In this document: piece by piece, positions 1-4,250 of the stretch | Layout of the letters: each line of letters opens with the position of its first letter | Position numbering within the stretch: the first letter of the stretch is position 1 | Assembly: GCA_015501055.1 (NCBI GenBank) | Contig: JADNYV010000183.1 | Span: 1 to 64,000, forward strand | Length of the DNA stretch: 64,000 nucleotides | Direction: 5' to 3' | DNA from: Mucidula mucida | Lineage: Eukaryota; Basidiomycota; Agaricomycetes; Agaricales; Physalacriaceae | Position numbers and translations under genes: made by a program | Notes under the pieces: model-generated | Seen by the model: the letters and a program-made list of their open reading frames with translations, nothing else | Told to the model about the DNA's origin: nothing | The model's database searches: none

Positions 1-2576
1 TTCAAAGTCGCGAGTACGTTCTTGGTACCAAGCTTCGTGCATGAAACGAATACGGATTGCGATCATCAAATGGTCCCAACTCTGGCAATAGAATTCTTCT
101 GCGCATTAGGCGTGTTAACCCACCATGCGCGCGCGTTTCCTTTCCAGCGTCGAGGGGCTATCCTAGCTATGCCGGTGTGTACTTCCGCACCAACAAGAGC
201 GAGGTCGTTCATCTCAATAAGGTAGGCTATGAGGGAAGATCCCTTCCCATCCCATTCAGGTACCTCGCTGCTAGGAATTTCTTGTTGATCTGCCACTGTT
301 CCAGGAATCTGAAGAAATTCGCGTTCGGCCATTGACCAGCTGGGGGATTAGCTCCTGGATCGGGAGGACCTCCTGCTCCGGCGCTATTAGCAGCCGGGGA
401 ATTGGGGGTCCCCCTCCACCTCCTCCGGCGCTACTAGCAGCCAGGGGGTTAGGGAACCCTCCTCCACCTCCGCCCATACCACTGCCGAGTCCTCCTCCAG
501 CGCCTCCCATTCCTCCAACGGGGGGATTATTCCCATTCCCTGAAGGGCCTGTACTTCCCGGATTAGGGGGAATAAGAGGCTGGCCGTTTAGAGGGTTGAG
601 ATTGGGGAGTAATCCTGGAGTCGGTTGGTTCGGAAGAGTCGTGGCTGTGCGCGATGCGAGAGCTTGCTGTAGCCAGTCGGGAGCTTGTGAACGATTTAGT
701 GGCCCCCATATAAGGGATCATGACGAGCTGATGGATTAGCAGTAGACGGATTATTCGTGACGTGATGAAGCATAGCAGATATAGACGCTGGTATAGGCAT
801 GAGGGCCTGCTGTACGAGATTGGTGGCGGGTTGAGGAGTCTCTGCGAATGGATTGCTTTCGGCACTAAGAGTTGGTTCCGGTGCGAAGGCGACATGACGA
901 GGAAGTTGGAAGTCGCGGGGCAATAACCGATGTGCCGCAGACAGACGTTCTCGGTAGTATTGATTATCGGGCTTATAGGCGGATCCCAGATTCTTTACTA
1001 TCTGCGGAATGTTCTCTCGTAACGCCGGGTCTACCGTTAGGGCTTTCTGTATGTAGCCGGGACGGAGGGCATACGCCCAAACGACATCCTCCCCTGCACA
1101 AGCATTCACCTCAGCACGTATCTCCGGGAGGGTGGAATCGTAGGATGATACTTCACTCAGACTCTTCTTCGGCGCATACATGGCGCGTAGGGCATTTATG
1201 TACTGTCTAATGCGATTCCGTGCCAATTTCAGCCTGAGAATTAGGTCGGACATGGCCACGACAATAGTCGTCTTATCCTCATGCCCTTCGAGCGTTCGAA
1301 TCAGGGAGAACTGCTGGTCTAATACGAATGGAGGCTCCTTGGTAGACTTAGATCCCAATTCCTGCTGAAACACTTCTAGAATTTGGGTAACTGCTTGAAC
1401 CAAATGACCCCAGTATCCTATGTCGTTATTGCCCTTGCCAATAGACCAAACCCTTCGTTCTCTCCCGCCCTGCAGCTTAACTTTGAAGTTCTGCCAACGA
1501 ATCTCCTTTCGTTCATAGTCGATTCGATCGTCGATAGCAGACGAGACGTCCTCCCAAAAGTCCTCTAGCGGCCAGGACCAACGAACCAGAGCTTCTCTAA
1601 TACGCATACTTTGCTGATGAGATAGGCCACGTAAATGTCCGCCTGCCGCGCCGAATTCTGCTAGGGGGTCTTCGTCTTCGAGGAGCCGGTAATTATACGA
1701 TTTATTGACGGTGATACCGATATCCTCGTCGTAGAGCTCGAAGTGTCGGCCGACGTTGAGGAGGATTCTGACGTGCGGGTGGCTAGAGCGCTGCCACATC
1801 CGGTTTAACGAGTCGATAGACAATGATTCGGCGTCACTGAGAGTGTTCGACCGTACCGAAGCCGTTTCCGCCACCACCGACTCTTTTGTTGACTGAACCT
1901 TGCCCGACGCTTCAGAATGAACGGCGCTATGAGCAGCCGTTTTTCCTTTGTCAATGGGCACGCTACGATCAGGAGGGACGGCGCTATTAGCAGCCATCCC
2001 TTCGTTGGCAAGAGGAACGGGAACGGCGCTATGAGCAGCCATTCCTTCGTCGTTAAGAGGAGCGCTATGAGCAGCTCCTTCCTGAGGGTTCACAGTCTTG
2101 GAAGTGGACGGGGGGTAGTCGTGTGTCGAAGGACCAGGATTAGAAGTAGAAGAAACCAATTCGATAGTGTTATTCGCCTTGACTTCTCTAAGGTCGAATG
2201 GTTGGCGGGGATTGGCGGGTTGACTGAGCGAAGATGGGGCTGGGAAAGTCCTAGAAGGCGAGTCCGAGACGTCCTGCGCAGAGACAGATCGTGCACGAGT
2301 TTGCATTTGGCGAGGAGTCGGGTGTAAATAATTGAGAGCGGGATTAGTCGTGTAATCCGGGTTGGAACGCAACCCCGTCTGTGTCCGCTGGGAAGGGTTG
2401 CTACCGCTAGCTGTCTTCGAGGTGCCGGGATCGTTGACGGCGGGACCGGTAGTGTTGGGACTTTTCGAGCCCGTGGCGTTGGAAGGGGGGTCGGTCGCCT
2501 GCTGTAAGCTCGTACGCTGCTTCCTGTTGGACATGGAAGGAGAGCGAGAAGGCGAACGAATAGTCAAGCCGCCCAT
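1..2576 (-). CDS. Ty3 Gag polyprotein, partial, with four apparent frame breaks
   Basis: The open part (2576-696, 626 codons) starts at a Met followed by a Ser/Pro/Asn-rich tail, then a helical region around residues 310-560. Beyond the stop at 696 the protein continues in other frames: a Gly/Pro-rich linker, then the agaric Ty3 Gag core with VPEWDGKGSSLIAYL at about 260-216 and the ARAWW region near 125, then a segment like RFMHEAWYQERT at the window edge. The breaks lie at or near C5 703-707, G5 404-408, T3 278-280 and around 72-76. Restoring one base at each gives a single frame, so I treat them as probable undercalls rather than decay. The zinc knuckle and pol would be further left. The role is capsid formation and RNA packaging. 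Confidence 0.75.
380..442 (-). repeat. Hairpin repeat copies 1 and 2, in gag linker
   Basis: Cores lie at 380-395 (minus strand GGCTGCTAATAGCGCC) and 427-442 (GGCTGCTAGTAGCGCC). Each folds as GGC, bulged T, GCT, three-base loop, AGC, GCC. Each stem extends two further pairs (C-G, C-G in copy 1; U-G wobble, C-G in copy 2). In the restored gag frame they encode AANSA and AASSA. Confidence 0.7.
1923..2075 (-). repeat. Hairpin repeat copies 3 to 6, in gag N-terminal region
   Basis: Cores lie at 1923-1938, 1980-1995, 2025-2040 and 2061-2075/2076, all read on the minus strand. They encode AAHSA or AANSA in the open gag frame. The stem extends beyond the core by three pairs (copy 3), six (copy 4), five (copy 5) and three (copy 6). 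Copy 6 has A...T where the others have G...C at the core ends, a compensatory change. Spacing between cores is 57, 45 and 36 bases. Confidence 0.75.
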
Positions 2577-2745
2577 TAGTATAAGCGGAAATTTGCTGGC
2601 ATTTCCGAAATGGCAGCGCGAAATTGCAGCGTGTTCGTCCCTGATAATCCTTGGCCACGGGGACTAATTGGAGAGATCTTGAAACGTTCTGGAGGCTTTG
2701 AAGGTCGGAATTTGAGGATTAGAAGGGCTATTGACGGGGTCCGGC

Positions 2746-2879
2746 GGCGCTATGAGCAGCCACCCGGGACATCTTGTCGTCGTAGGAGGGAAAGTCGTTC
2801 CGGCAATTGCCGATCAACGCGTCCATGTTTGGAAATGGCGCGGTAATGTGAATGAGGTCCGACGGCGCTATGAGCGGCC
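2746..2879 (-). repeat. Hairpin repeat copies 7 and 8, in the untranslated leader
   Basis: Cores lie at 2746-2761 (GGCTGCTCATAGCGCC on the minus strand) and 2864-2879 (GGCCGCTCATAGCGCC). The one substitution in copy 8 falls on the unpaired bulge. Flanks add three pairs to copy 7 and five, including two G-U, to copy 8. Both lie between the primer-binding site and the gag start, where retroelement packaging signals usually sit. That role is inference. Confidence 0.7.
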
Positions 2880-2923
2880 ATCGAGGACGAATGAGGTTGA
2901 CTCCACCGGTTTGGTGAAGTCCT

Positions 2924-2937
2924 GGGTGACCCCACCA
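2924..2937 (-). other. Primer-binding site of the Ty3 element
   Basis: The minus strand reads TGGTGGGGTCACCC, one base downstream of the LTR. Its complement, GGGTGACCCCACCA, has the form of a tRNA 3' end with CCA. Position and form are those of a minus-strand primer site. The tRNA species was not identified. Confidence 0.6.
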
Positions 2938-2938
2938 C

Positions 2939-3256
2939 TGTGAATCGGTCACGGTCCGGGACTTCTCACCAGAGGAGTCAACCTGTAAGAATACATAGAC
3001 GCGTCAAGGCTCGCGTCTTAGCCCCACGGTAACCCAGTGAAGGGAGTGTGTGACCCTCACTCGGGGAGCCGTTAACACGGGTGCTCAGCGGGCCTGGCGT
3101 GTCTGTTATCGAGTTACAACATGGGACTTGTAGTCCGCCGTAGAAAGTAAAGCAAACGAGATGATAATTCAAAGACAAGTTAATACAGGGTCCGATCAAC
3201 TACTATAACGAGGATTTTACGTAACGCGACTAGTGAGATAACTACTCCATATCACA
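2939..3256 (-). repeat. 5' LTR of the Ty3 element
   Basis: On the minus strand this starts TGTGATATGG and ends GATTCACA, giving 318 bases with the canonical TG...CA limits and a five-base terminal inverted repeat. The outer edge coincides with the point where epoxide-hydrolase homology ends, and the inner edge is one base from a primer-binding site. The second LTR is outside the window, so the limits rest on these two independent edges. Confidence 0.7.
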
Positions 3257-4250
3257 AATCTTCTTCTTCGGATGAATAAAACGGAATGGGCGGAATCTGC
3301 GATCCATTATAGTAAATGAACCAGGAACGCCGCTAACACTATTCACCTCCACGACATCCTTATAAGCACCCAAAAAGTCATTCTCGCTGGTCAAGAATGT
3401 GGGAGGCGAAACACTCGACTTTGATCGAAGTGTCGAGCGAAGAGAACGTCTAATGTCCGCATCCAGCTCTTTCACAGCTTCCGCGGTCTTCTTGTCAAAG
3501 TAAAGCTGGTACGTCAACTTTGGGAACCACGGCGTGAGGTCCTTCATAGGGACAAAAGAGCCGGCTGCAGGGATATACTACAACGACGCGTCAAACCTGT
3601 TTGGTGACCTTGTCCAAAGAGTCGAGGACTCACTGGCACAACCACCCCAACGACGCCGTTAAACACGTCTGGCCGTGACCTACCAGCTTCGTAACAGACG
3701 GACGAGCCCCAGTCGTGCCTGGCATCTAGGTTAGGAATAGTGAGGTTGGAGAAAGAACGCGAACGTACCCCACACAGATAGCCGGAGTCGCTTTGGCATG
3801 CTCAAGGACACAGACGAGATCCCCAACGTGGTCGAAAAGCGTGCCGGAACTCTTGACATCGCCTGGATGAGTGGACCTCCCGAAGCCGCGTAAATCAGGC
3901 ACAATGAGATGATAATCTTTCTGTAGATAACGCTTGAGTACGCCGACCGCGAAAAGACGCTAGTACCTCGAACGCCTCGATTTGGCGCGCCCAAGTCGAC
4001 CAGATACTAGGCCATCCGTGCACAAGTATCAGAGTCGTCTTCCCCGTCGGGTTCACATCGATATAGCCTGGCGAGATGTCAACGAAACGCGCATGAATTC
4101 GAGATGGTGAAAACGCGAACTGAGTTCAATGTCGACTTGCGTGTTCGTGGCTCTGTTCAGGGCTTTGCACGTCGCGGTCTGTCGATTATATGCTCTGTGA
4201 TTGAAAGCGAGCGTAAGCGGCGCGAGGAGAAGGGCGTAGAGAAAGCGCAT
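3257..4250 (-). pseudogene. Secreted epoxide hydrolase (alpha/beta hydrolase), truncated by Ty3 insertion
   Basis: The gene starts at 4250 with a signal peptide (MRFLYALLLAPLTLA). Four short introns can be placed, for example 53 bases ending near 4072 and the last ending just before 3294. The spliced protein shows the oxyanion motif HGWPSIW, then PDLRGFGRSTHPGD, the nucleophile motif HDWGS, and a lid region with LTYQLYFDKKTAEAV and IPPIPF. Homology ends after three Glu and an Asp, in the middle of the next codon, where the retrotransposon LTR begins. The rest of the lid and the acid and His of the triad are missing from the window. The family hydrolyses epoxides or related substrates; the substrate here is unknown. 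Splice sites are otherwise good, so the loss is probably recent. Confidence 0.85.

Follow-up and report, generated by a model that had tools for sequence, protein, structure and literature searches.

The window, a stretch of 64,000 nucleotides from Mucidula mucida (Agaricales, Physalacriaceae), holds on its minus strand just the 5′ end of a low-copy Ty3-type element, a retrotransposon with long terminal repeats (LTRs). Within this fragment a small bulged hairpin occurs eight times (Table 1). It is a real, unusual and well-supported structured repeat, for which we infer a function below. The hairpin recurs in coding and non-coding parts of the element, is found in the sense orientation only and has flanks that are complementary copy by copy; five hairpins that could be compared between diverged copies have changed less than their surroundings.

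Since the window starts at base 1 of its contig (C142, 72,265 bases), the element is truncated at position 1. A longer copy on contig C243 has both LTRs (318 bp, TGTGA...TCACA, with TG...CA ends; 97.8% identical), makes up an element of 13.2 kb and carries 14 more hairpins past the break of the window copy. The contigs are abbreviated C142 (the window's own), C243, C109, C192, C870, C1004, C64, C218 and C450; coordinates prefixed L021 and L022 refer to pieces of C243, L026 to C218, L027 to C450 and L029 to C1004. The domain order (PF00078, PF17919, PF17917, then PF17921, above cut-off in Pfam) fits Ty3/Gypsy, the rve domain scoring 21.4 bits, under its cut-off of 32.6. Reverse transcriptase (RT), RNase H and integrase were placed by Pfam, and the protease and zinc knuckle were named by eye from the translation. 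As judged from LTRs and domain order, the element belongs to the Ty3/Gypsy class.

Distribution of the hairpin

All eight minus-strand cores reported in the original prediction are present at their positions, where 100 dinucleotide shuffles give an expectation of 0. Its loops, bulge and single compensated A-T copy are as described, and its counts of flanking pairs (2, 2, 3, 6, 5, 3, 3 and 5, in ascending order of position) are matched exactly once G-T pairs are allowed. The assignment of six hairpins to gag and two to the leader holds for the 5′ part in the window but not for the element, since the C243 copy has 22. The gag placement itself needs qualification for the cores at 380 and 427. Their counterparts in C243 sit in the second, Gag-Pol frame (PNPLAASSAGG for 427 and PIPPAANSAGA for 380). 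They also fall in the stretch shared with the end of ORF1, whose frame gives WLLVAP and RLLIAP there. These two cores are spaced by 47 in the window copy, versus 48 in C109 and C243. The leader copies do lie outside the gag frame as claimed, but a 43-codon upstream open reading frame (ORF) spans both.

Table 1. The Ty3-type element in the window: hairpins and other features
Feature	Position	Strand	Remark
Leader hairpin 1, loop CAT, bulge C, 5 flank pairs	2864..2879	-	
Leader hairpin 2, loop CAT, 3 flank pairs	2746..2761	-	
ORF1 hairpin, outer G-C pair replaced by A-T	2061..2076	-	Peptide GAAHSAP
ORF1 hairpin, 5 flank pairs (third A-T)	2025..2040	-	Peptide MAAHSAV
ORF1 hairpin, 6 flank pairs (third G-C, a two-sided change relative to neighbour 2025)	1980..1995	-	Peptide MAANSAV
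ORF1 hairpin, 3 flank pairs	1923..1938	-	Peptide TAAHSAV
Second (Gag-Pol) frame hairpin, loop AGT	427..442	-	LAASSAG per C243 reading
Second (Gag-Pol) frame hairpin, loop AAT	380..395	-	PAANSAG per C243 reading
5′ LTR, 318 bp	2939..3256	-	BLAST match to both C243 LTRs
Putative primer-binding site, directly after LTR, TGG after one base	2909..2938	-	Primer-binding-site-like; tentative assignment
Upstream ORF, 43 codons	2750..2881	-	ATG overlaps leader hairpin 1, TAG stop within leader hairpin 2
ORF1 (N-terminal part of Gag), 626 codons in window copy	696..2576	-	Matches CPB85DRAFT_1441394 of Mucidula mucida
Start of Gag-Pol, element broken off at contig end	1..379	-	Comparison with C243 copy

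The 22 hairpins of C243 are all in the sense orientation, with none antisense. Twenty are 16-base cores found by sequence, and a covariance model built from these added two more after pol (L022:1924-1954 and 1983-2013), matched with the loop one base shorter. The post-pol hairpins are also present in C192, C870 and C1004, although one C1004 match is weak (E 0.14). Two hairpins lie in the leader, four in ORF1, two at the start of the second frame, one between zinc knuckle and protease, six between protease and RT, two between RNase H and integrase, two after pol and three in ORF3. Eighteen are thus coding, located in linkers between recognised domains, and every one reads AA[H/N/S/D/Y]SA in frame inside its protein; the two leader and two post-pol copies fall outside coding frames. 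No hairpin-free stretch between the LTRs of C243 exceeds about 2 kb, and the eight clusters into which the hairpins fall are more evenly spaced than eight random points (p=0.002). A larger module common to the leader and post-pol pairs was considered and rejected (the score, 37, stays below the null maximum of 49); what they share is the hairpin and a few flank bases.

A search of the 59.9-Mb genome with the pattern GGCTGCTNNTAGCGCC gave 38 exact matches, compared with 0 for its reversed control. Of these, 35 lie within copies of the element (C243 14; C109, C142 and C192 6 each; C870 2; C1004 1), so that spread through unrelated genes was not seen among exact genome matches; the other three are on C64, C218 and C450. 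The looser pattern RGCNGCTNNTAGCGCY gave, among the matches listed, at least 66 exact ones, 51 in the element and 15 outside. With one mismatch allowed its matches (265) are fewer than those of the reversed control (463), and specificity is therefore confined to the exact core. The C64 core lies in a region translating to an Hsp70-like gene, as read by eye. C218 and C450 (L026, L027) are 98.8% identical over more than 9 kb and are probably two haplotypes of one locus; each has one exact core (five flank pairs in L026, one in L027), with no recognised element nearby, which we take as chance.

Core and flanks

The core RNA is GGC-bulge-GCU-NAU-AGC-GCC. Across the twenty 16-base copies, 11 of the 16 positions are invariant. 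Bases differ at the bulge (T 16, C 3, A 1) and at loop positions one and two, and two copies have A-T in place of the outer G-C pair, a change on both sides. Stem cells are changed in 4 of 240 cases, all within the two compensated pairs, versus 15 of 80 for bulge and loop (Fisher p=5e-7, the cells not being independent events). The loop has three bases in 20 of the 22 hairpins (CAT, AAT, AGT, GAT, TAT), and the post-pol two fold with a four-base TATA, a short AT-only palindrome. The original prediction had offered dimerisation as a possible role. A kissing interaction finds no support in the loops, since the three-base (N)AU type offers no palindrome and only the post-pol two have TATA; with three bases in 20 of the 22, loop-to-loop dimerisation is unlikely.

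Between clusters, identity beyond the 16-base core is near background (10.98 of 40, against 10.07). Single flank positions above the 0.25 level are the two adjoining the core (0.38 and 0.46), left 13 (0.50) and right 13 (0.44). Despite this, the flanks are complementary copy by copy. The evidence for covariation consists of permutation and shuffle tests, which are not phylogeny-aware. Over the 22 copies there are 66 contiguous flank pairs, compared with 23.6 when flanks are permuted, and none of 50,000 permutations was as high (p<2e-5). Taking one copy from each of the eight clusters, contiguous flank pairs remain in excess (p=0.00025), as do pairs over the first five positions (p=0.003). The 20-copy version gives 57 contiguous pairs against 19.5 permuted (0 of 20,000 as high; per cluster p=0.0018). 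Inherited flanks do not explain the pairing, as flank identity between clusters is near background.

The pair adjoining the core is formed in all 22 copies (T-G 13, G-C 6, C-G 2, G-T 1), and pairing wanes past the third to fifth position. In the 20-copy alignment A1, 84.5% of cells are paired versus 71.4% in shuffles, 33 cells show two-sided change versus 14.4, and the covariation score is 0.310 versus 0.101; for each measure none of 500 shuffles was as high. Neighbours with similar flanks differ by two-sided change, as at 3894 (A-T) and 3939 (G-C) and at 3055 (A-T) and 3173 (G-C). The post-pol copies are unable to encode AAxSA, yet have 4 and 5 flank pairs. Non-complementary flanks or a lack of covarying pairs would have reduced the repeat to a coding one in the original prediction; permutation and shuffle tests find instead that the flanks pair and covary. 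A structured hairpin is further indicated by the copies outside coding frames and by the ability of a model of 20 copies to detect two with a shorter loop.

Constraint and predicted folding

C243 and C870 are about 9% apart, with 489 substitutions, both transitions and transversions, in a 5.8-kb alignment. For the five of the 22 hairpins that this comparison covers, the cores changed at 1 of 78 positions, compared with 7.0 expected from random placements (p=0.011). When five flanking bases are included the count is 3 of 128 against 11.4 (p=0.0085). The changes in C1004 (L029) are strongly biased towards C>T and G>A, resembling methylation-linked decay, with CpG altered to TpG or CpA at 139 of 232 sites in the larger aligned stretch and 72 of 133 in the other. 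At the first post-pol hairpin C1004 differs from C243 by what looks like a compensatory change, which was not used as evidence because C1004 decays by CpG change. RNAfold, applied to the twenty 16-base copies, predicts a mean core-pair probability of at least 0.5 in 16 of 20 with 60 bases of context on either side and likewise in 16 of 20 with 150.

Several observations weigh against a conserved RNA structure of this kind. Invariance of the core may equally reflect recent copying or a joint demand of peptide and stem, and the even spacing of clusters may stem from the spacing of protein linkers. With the 20-copy set, one copy per cluster and eight flank positions, the excess is weak (total pairs p=0.035, Watson-Crick pairs alone p=0.08). 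Two of the five shuffle measures do not exceed the shuffles (pairs changed on both sides, 75 of 500 as high; pair types, 106 of 500). Five copies between protease and RT, of the type CGGGC...GCCCA, have one contiguous flank pair only, and C192 carries one altered core with four of six pairs. Cores in the CpG-decayed C1004 are without clear protection. RNAfold gives a mean below 0.5 for 4 of 20 copies in each context, L021:5540 and L022:3977 in both. Finally, over flank pairs 1–5 of 20 copies, G-T cells (18) hardly exceed A-C cells (14), so a sense-strand preference is clear only at the first flank pair.

The lack of a strong overall strand preference, together with a core that is near-palindromic in DNA, would be expected if the hairpin were a DNA-level site, either a palindrome bound by a host or element protein or a cruciform. 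We regard this as highly improbable. With its one-base bulge the core is not a true dyad, all 22 copies share one orientation, and the commonest innermost flank pair, T-G (13 of 22), is a wobble pair in the sense RNA but a mismatch on the other strand.

Relatives of the element

The array was not found outside this element. Among the best 120 of 144 homologous polyproteins (E<=1e-10) none has three or more AAxSA motifs, the maximum being two. This also counts against the array as a necessary signal, since related elements manage without it. A search with ORF1 residues 1-260 (L021:3361-5205) returned only the element's own protein, CPB85DRAFT_1441394, among 2789 candidates, and one with the six-copy spacer nothing at E<=1 among 204. 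For three related elements of the same genome, 58% identical in RT, the parts examined lack any repeated hairpin. The nearest hairpin-free relatives range from this 58% to 72% identity in the best-matching part of Pol, and their linkers, judged by eye, are too diverged to align. The array may thus be young, an age suggested by proteins rather than by the DNA of relatives in other fungi. In L021 and L022 no Rfam family scores at or above its gathering threshold. In the published literature, as far as its text was accessible, we came across no LTR element said to carry a repeated hairpin, and no such account for M. mucida.

These searches bear on the idea that selection acts on the peptide, AAxSA serving as a flexible linker or protease site and the hairpin being a by-product of codon choice and recent duplication. 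It is true that all 18 coding copies are readable in the same one of two stop-free frames, between domains, and that C870 and C1004 cores with AGT for AGC retain serine; in C870 and in one of the two C1004 cores the cost of this substitution is wobble pairs only, and in the second C1004 core a pair is broken. The peptide array is, however, absent in every homologue examined (the 120 listed polyproteins and the ORF1 and spacer searches), and after these checks the peptide was rejected as the main cause. The second alanine is always GCT and the serine always AGC in the 18 C243 coding copies, while the element elsewhere uses every alanine and serine codon. Residues on either side vary while their bases remain paired. 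Above all, the peptide reading fails because four of the 22 copies lie outside coding frames, two of them incapable of AAxSA, and we give it very little weight.

The main rival is a self-spreading coding palindrome: a 16-base hairpin copied within the element, for instance by template switching of reverse transcriptase at hairpins, which survives in frame in linkers and has no function for its host, like the Rickettsia palindromic elements. Such an origin would account for an exact 16-base unit with identity near background past its borders, for coding copies restricted to inter-domain stretches, for local tandem copies within clusters and for the absence of the hairpin in the relatives examined. 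It does not predict copy-wise complementary flanks with two-sided changes between neighbours, unless insertion selects pre-existing inverted repeats. Nor would it predict 22 sense copies and no antisense ones, given that the core read in reverse orientation also has open frames, the lack of spread beyond one element, or the slower change of the five tested hairpins. The original prediction allowed for a small mobile hairpin that colonises the element. The uniform sense orientation, the restriction to one element and the compensation in the flanks all lower its probability, and we consider it unlikely overall.

ORF3 and the assembly of the element

ORF3 lies outside the window, between pol and the 3′ LTR of C243 (L022:4135-5649). 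It encodes an RS-rich protein of 504 codons with no Pfam match at E 0.01 and, within this genome, occurs only in hairpin-bearing copies. The end of pol is split over two frames in C243 (L022:1312-1847), including a chromodomain-like stretch read by eye. No target site duplication was found at the C243 copy, the one that was checked (L021:2668-2677 against L022:5960-5969); its flanking bases differ and this copy may therefore be rearranged. Three contigs stop at a single element position (L021:5936/5937), namely at window position 1, C109:1 and C192:57375. The shared ends point to a break in the assembly at this position, with C192 as the probable continuation of one of the two 5′ pieces.

Discussion

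On balance we favour the idea that the hairpins are sequence-specific RNA stem-loops, putative binding sites on the genomic RNA, probably for its packaging or handling; we hold this with a little better than even confidence. We infer that the hairpins act as RNA, are bound by a protein and serve in packaging. The fixed core would be the putative surface recognised by the protein, and the lower stem, of free sequence, would need only to pair; a fixed core on a free but paired lower stem is the pattern that a sequence-specific RNA-binding protein would impose. A candidate ligand is encoded by the element itself, either the zinc-knuckle region of Gag or the RS-rich ORF3 product. Multiple sites would help to select, condense or package the genomic RNA, like the dispersed packaging signals of RNA viruses. 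The coding part of the array would be kept to linkers between recognised domains, where the forced peptide AAxSA is plausibly tolerated.

The same RNA array could serve another use, such as nuclear export, translational control or ribosome pausing between domains, with the ORF3 product or a host protein as ligand. A serious alternative is that the RS-rich ORF3 product controls export or translation. The confinement of ORF3 to hairpin-bearing copies and the position of many hairpins between domains are consistent with it, and there is a precedent in the LTR element Cer1, whose own protein is reported, in the part of the source available to us, to be needed for its genomic RNA to leave the nucleus (PMC10309623). 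Ribosome pausing, in contrast, leaves the leader and post-pol copies unexplained. Taken together, we think these other uses improbable, somewhat more so than the self-spreading palindrome.

Dispersed cis-acting stem-loops are a known kind of signal; for the LTR-element setting we found no published description in the accounts available. The closest likeness is to the dispersed packaging signals of RNA viruses (MS2 TR-like; PMC6281560), which as described there also consist of many stem-loops along one genomic RNA with a short common motif. The MS2 motif has a 5′ bulge and an apical loop motif, and the 5′ bulge and short loop of the Mucidula hairpin recall the coat-protein site (PMC6281560). 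The viral signals vary around a motif, whereas the Mucidula core is near-identical from copy to copy, its carrier is an LTR retrotransposon and its sites are putative. A bolder version of the RNA stem-loop proposal, which we offer tentatively and as somewhat less likely than not, is of a recently evolved, uniform hairpin code over the full length of the genomic RNA: some 22 near-identical bulged stem-loops, their lower stems unconstrained except in pairing, read by one of the element's own proteins, that mark its RNA for packaging or export and force a peptide on the linkers, a natural counterpart of MS2 arrays.

Other systems resemble the array in part. Rickettsia palindromic elements, in the account consulted, are likewise palindromic units repeated in frame inside protein genes, about 150 bp long, in ten families and in unrelated genes (PMC10969869), whereas the Mucidula unit is 16 nt, in one orientation and one element, with covarying flanks. 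In the mitochondrial coding palindromes of Nematomorpha a strong stem and protein coding are also maintained together, but as the source describes them these differ in being perfect inverted repeats, at most 284 bp long, as opposed to a short motif in many copies (PMC6649704). The genomic RNA of yeast Ty3, itself a Ty3-type element, has six different short palindromes at its 5′ end, one of them a dimerisation site, and no repeated hairpin is described in the available portions of these papers (PMC11381356, PMC4974528). Chromodomain-type Ty3/Gypsy elements of Agaricomycetes, such as Hypsizygus marmoreus Hypma_014481, have a related polyprotein with the same RT, RNase H, integrase and chromodomain families; Hypma_014481 (69% identity over the best-matching 39% of the query) differs in having a single long ORF and no AAxSA array.

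How an LTR retrotransposon chooses its genomic RNA is poorly defined. For yeast Ty1 and Ty3, the accessible text of a review describes the packaging sites as ill-defined, with a probable contribution from scattered ones (PMC4974528). The 22 near-identical hairpins of the Mucidula element are candidates that could be tested directly with one short RNA probe. If they are instead self-spreading, they would be an example of a coding palindrome that evolves within a mobile element of a eukaryote.

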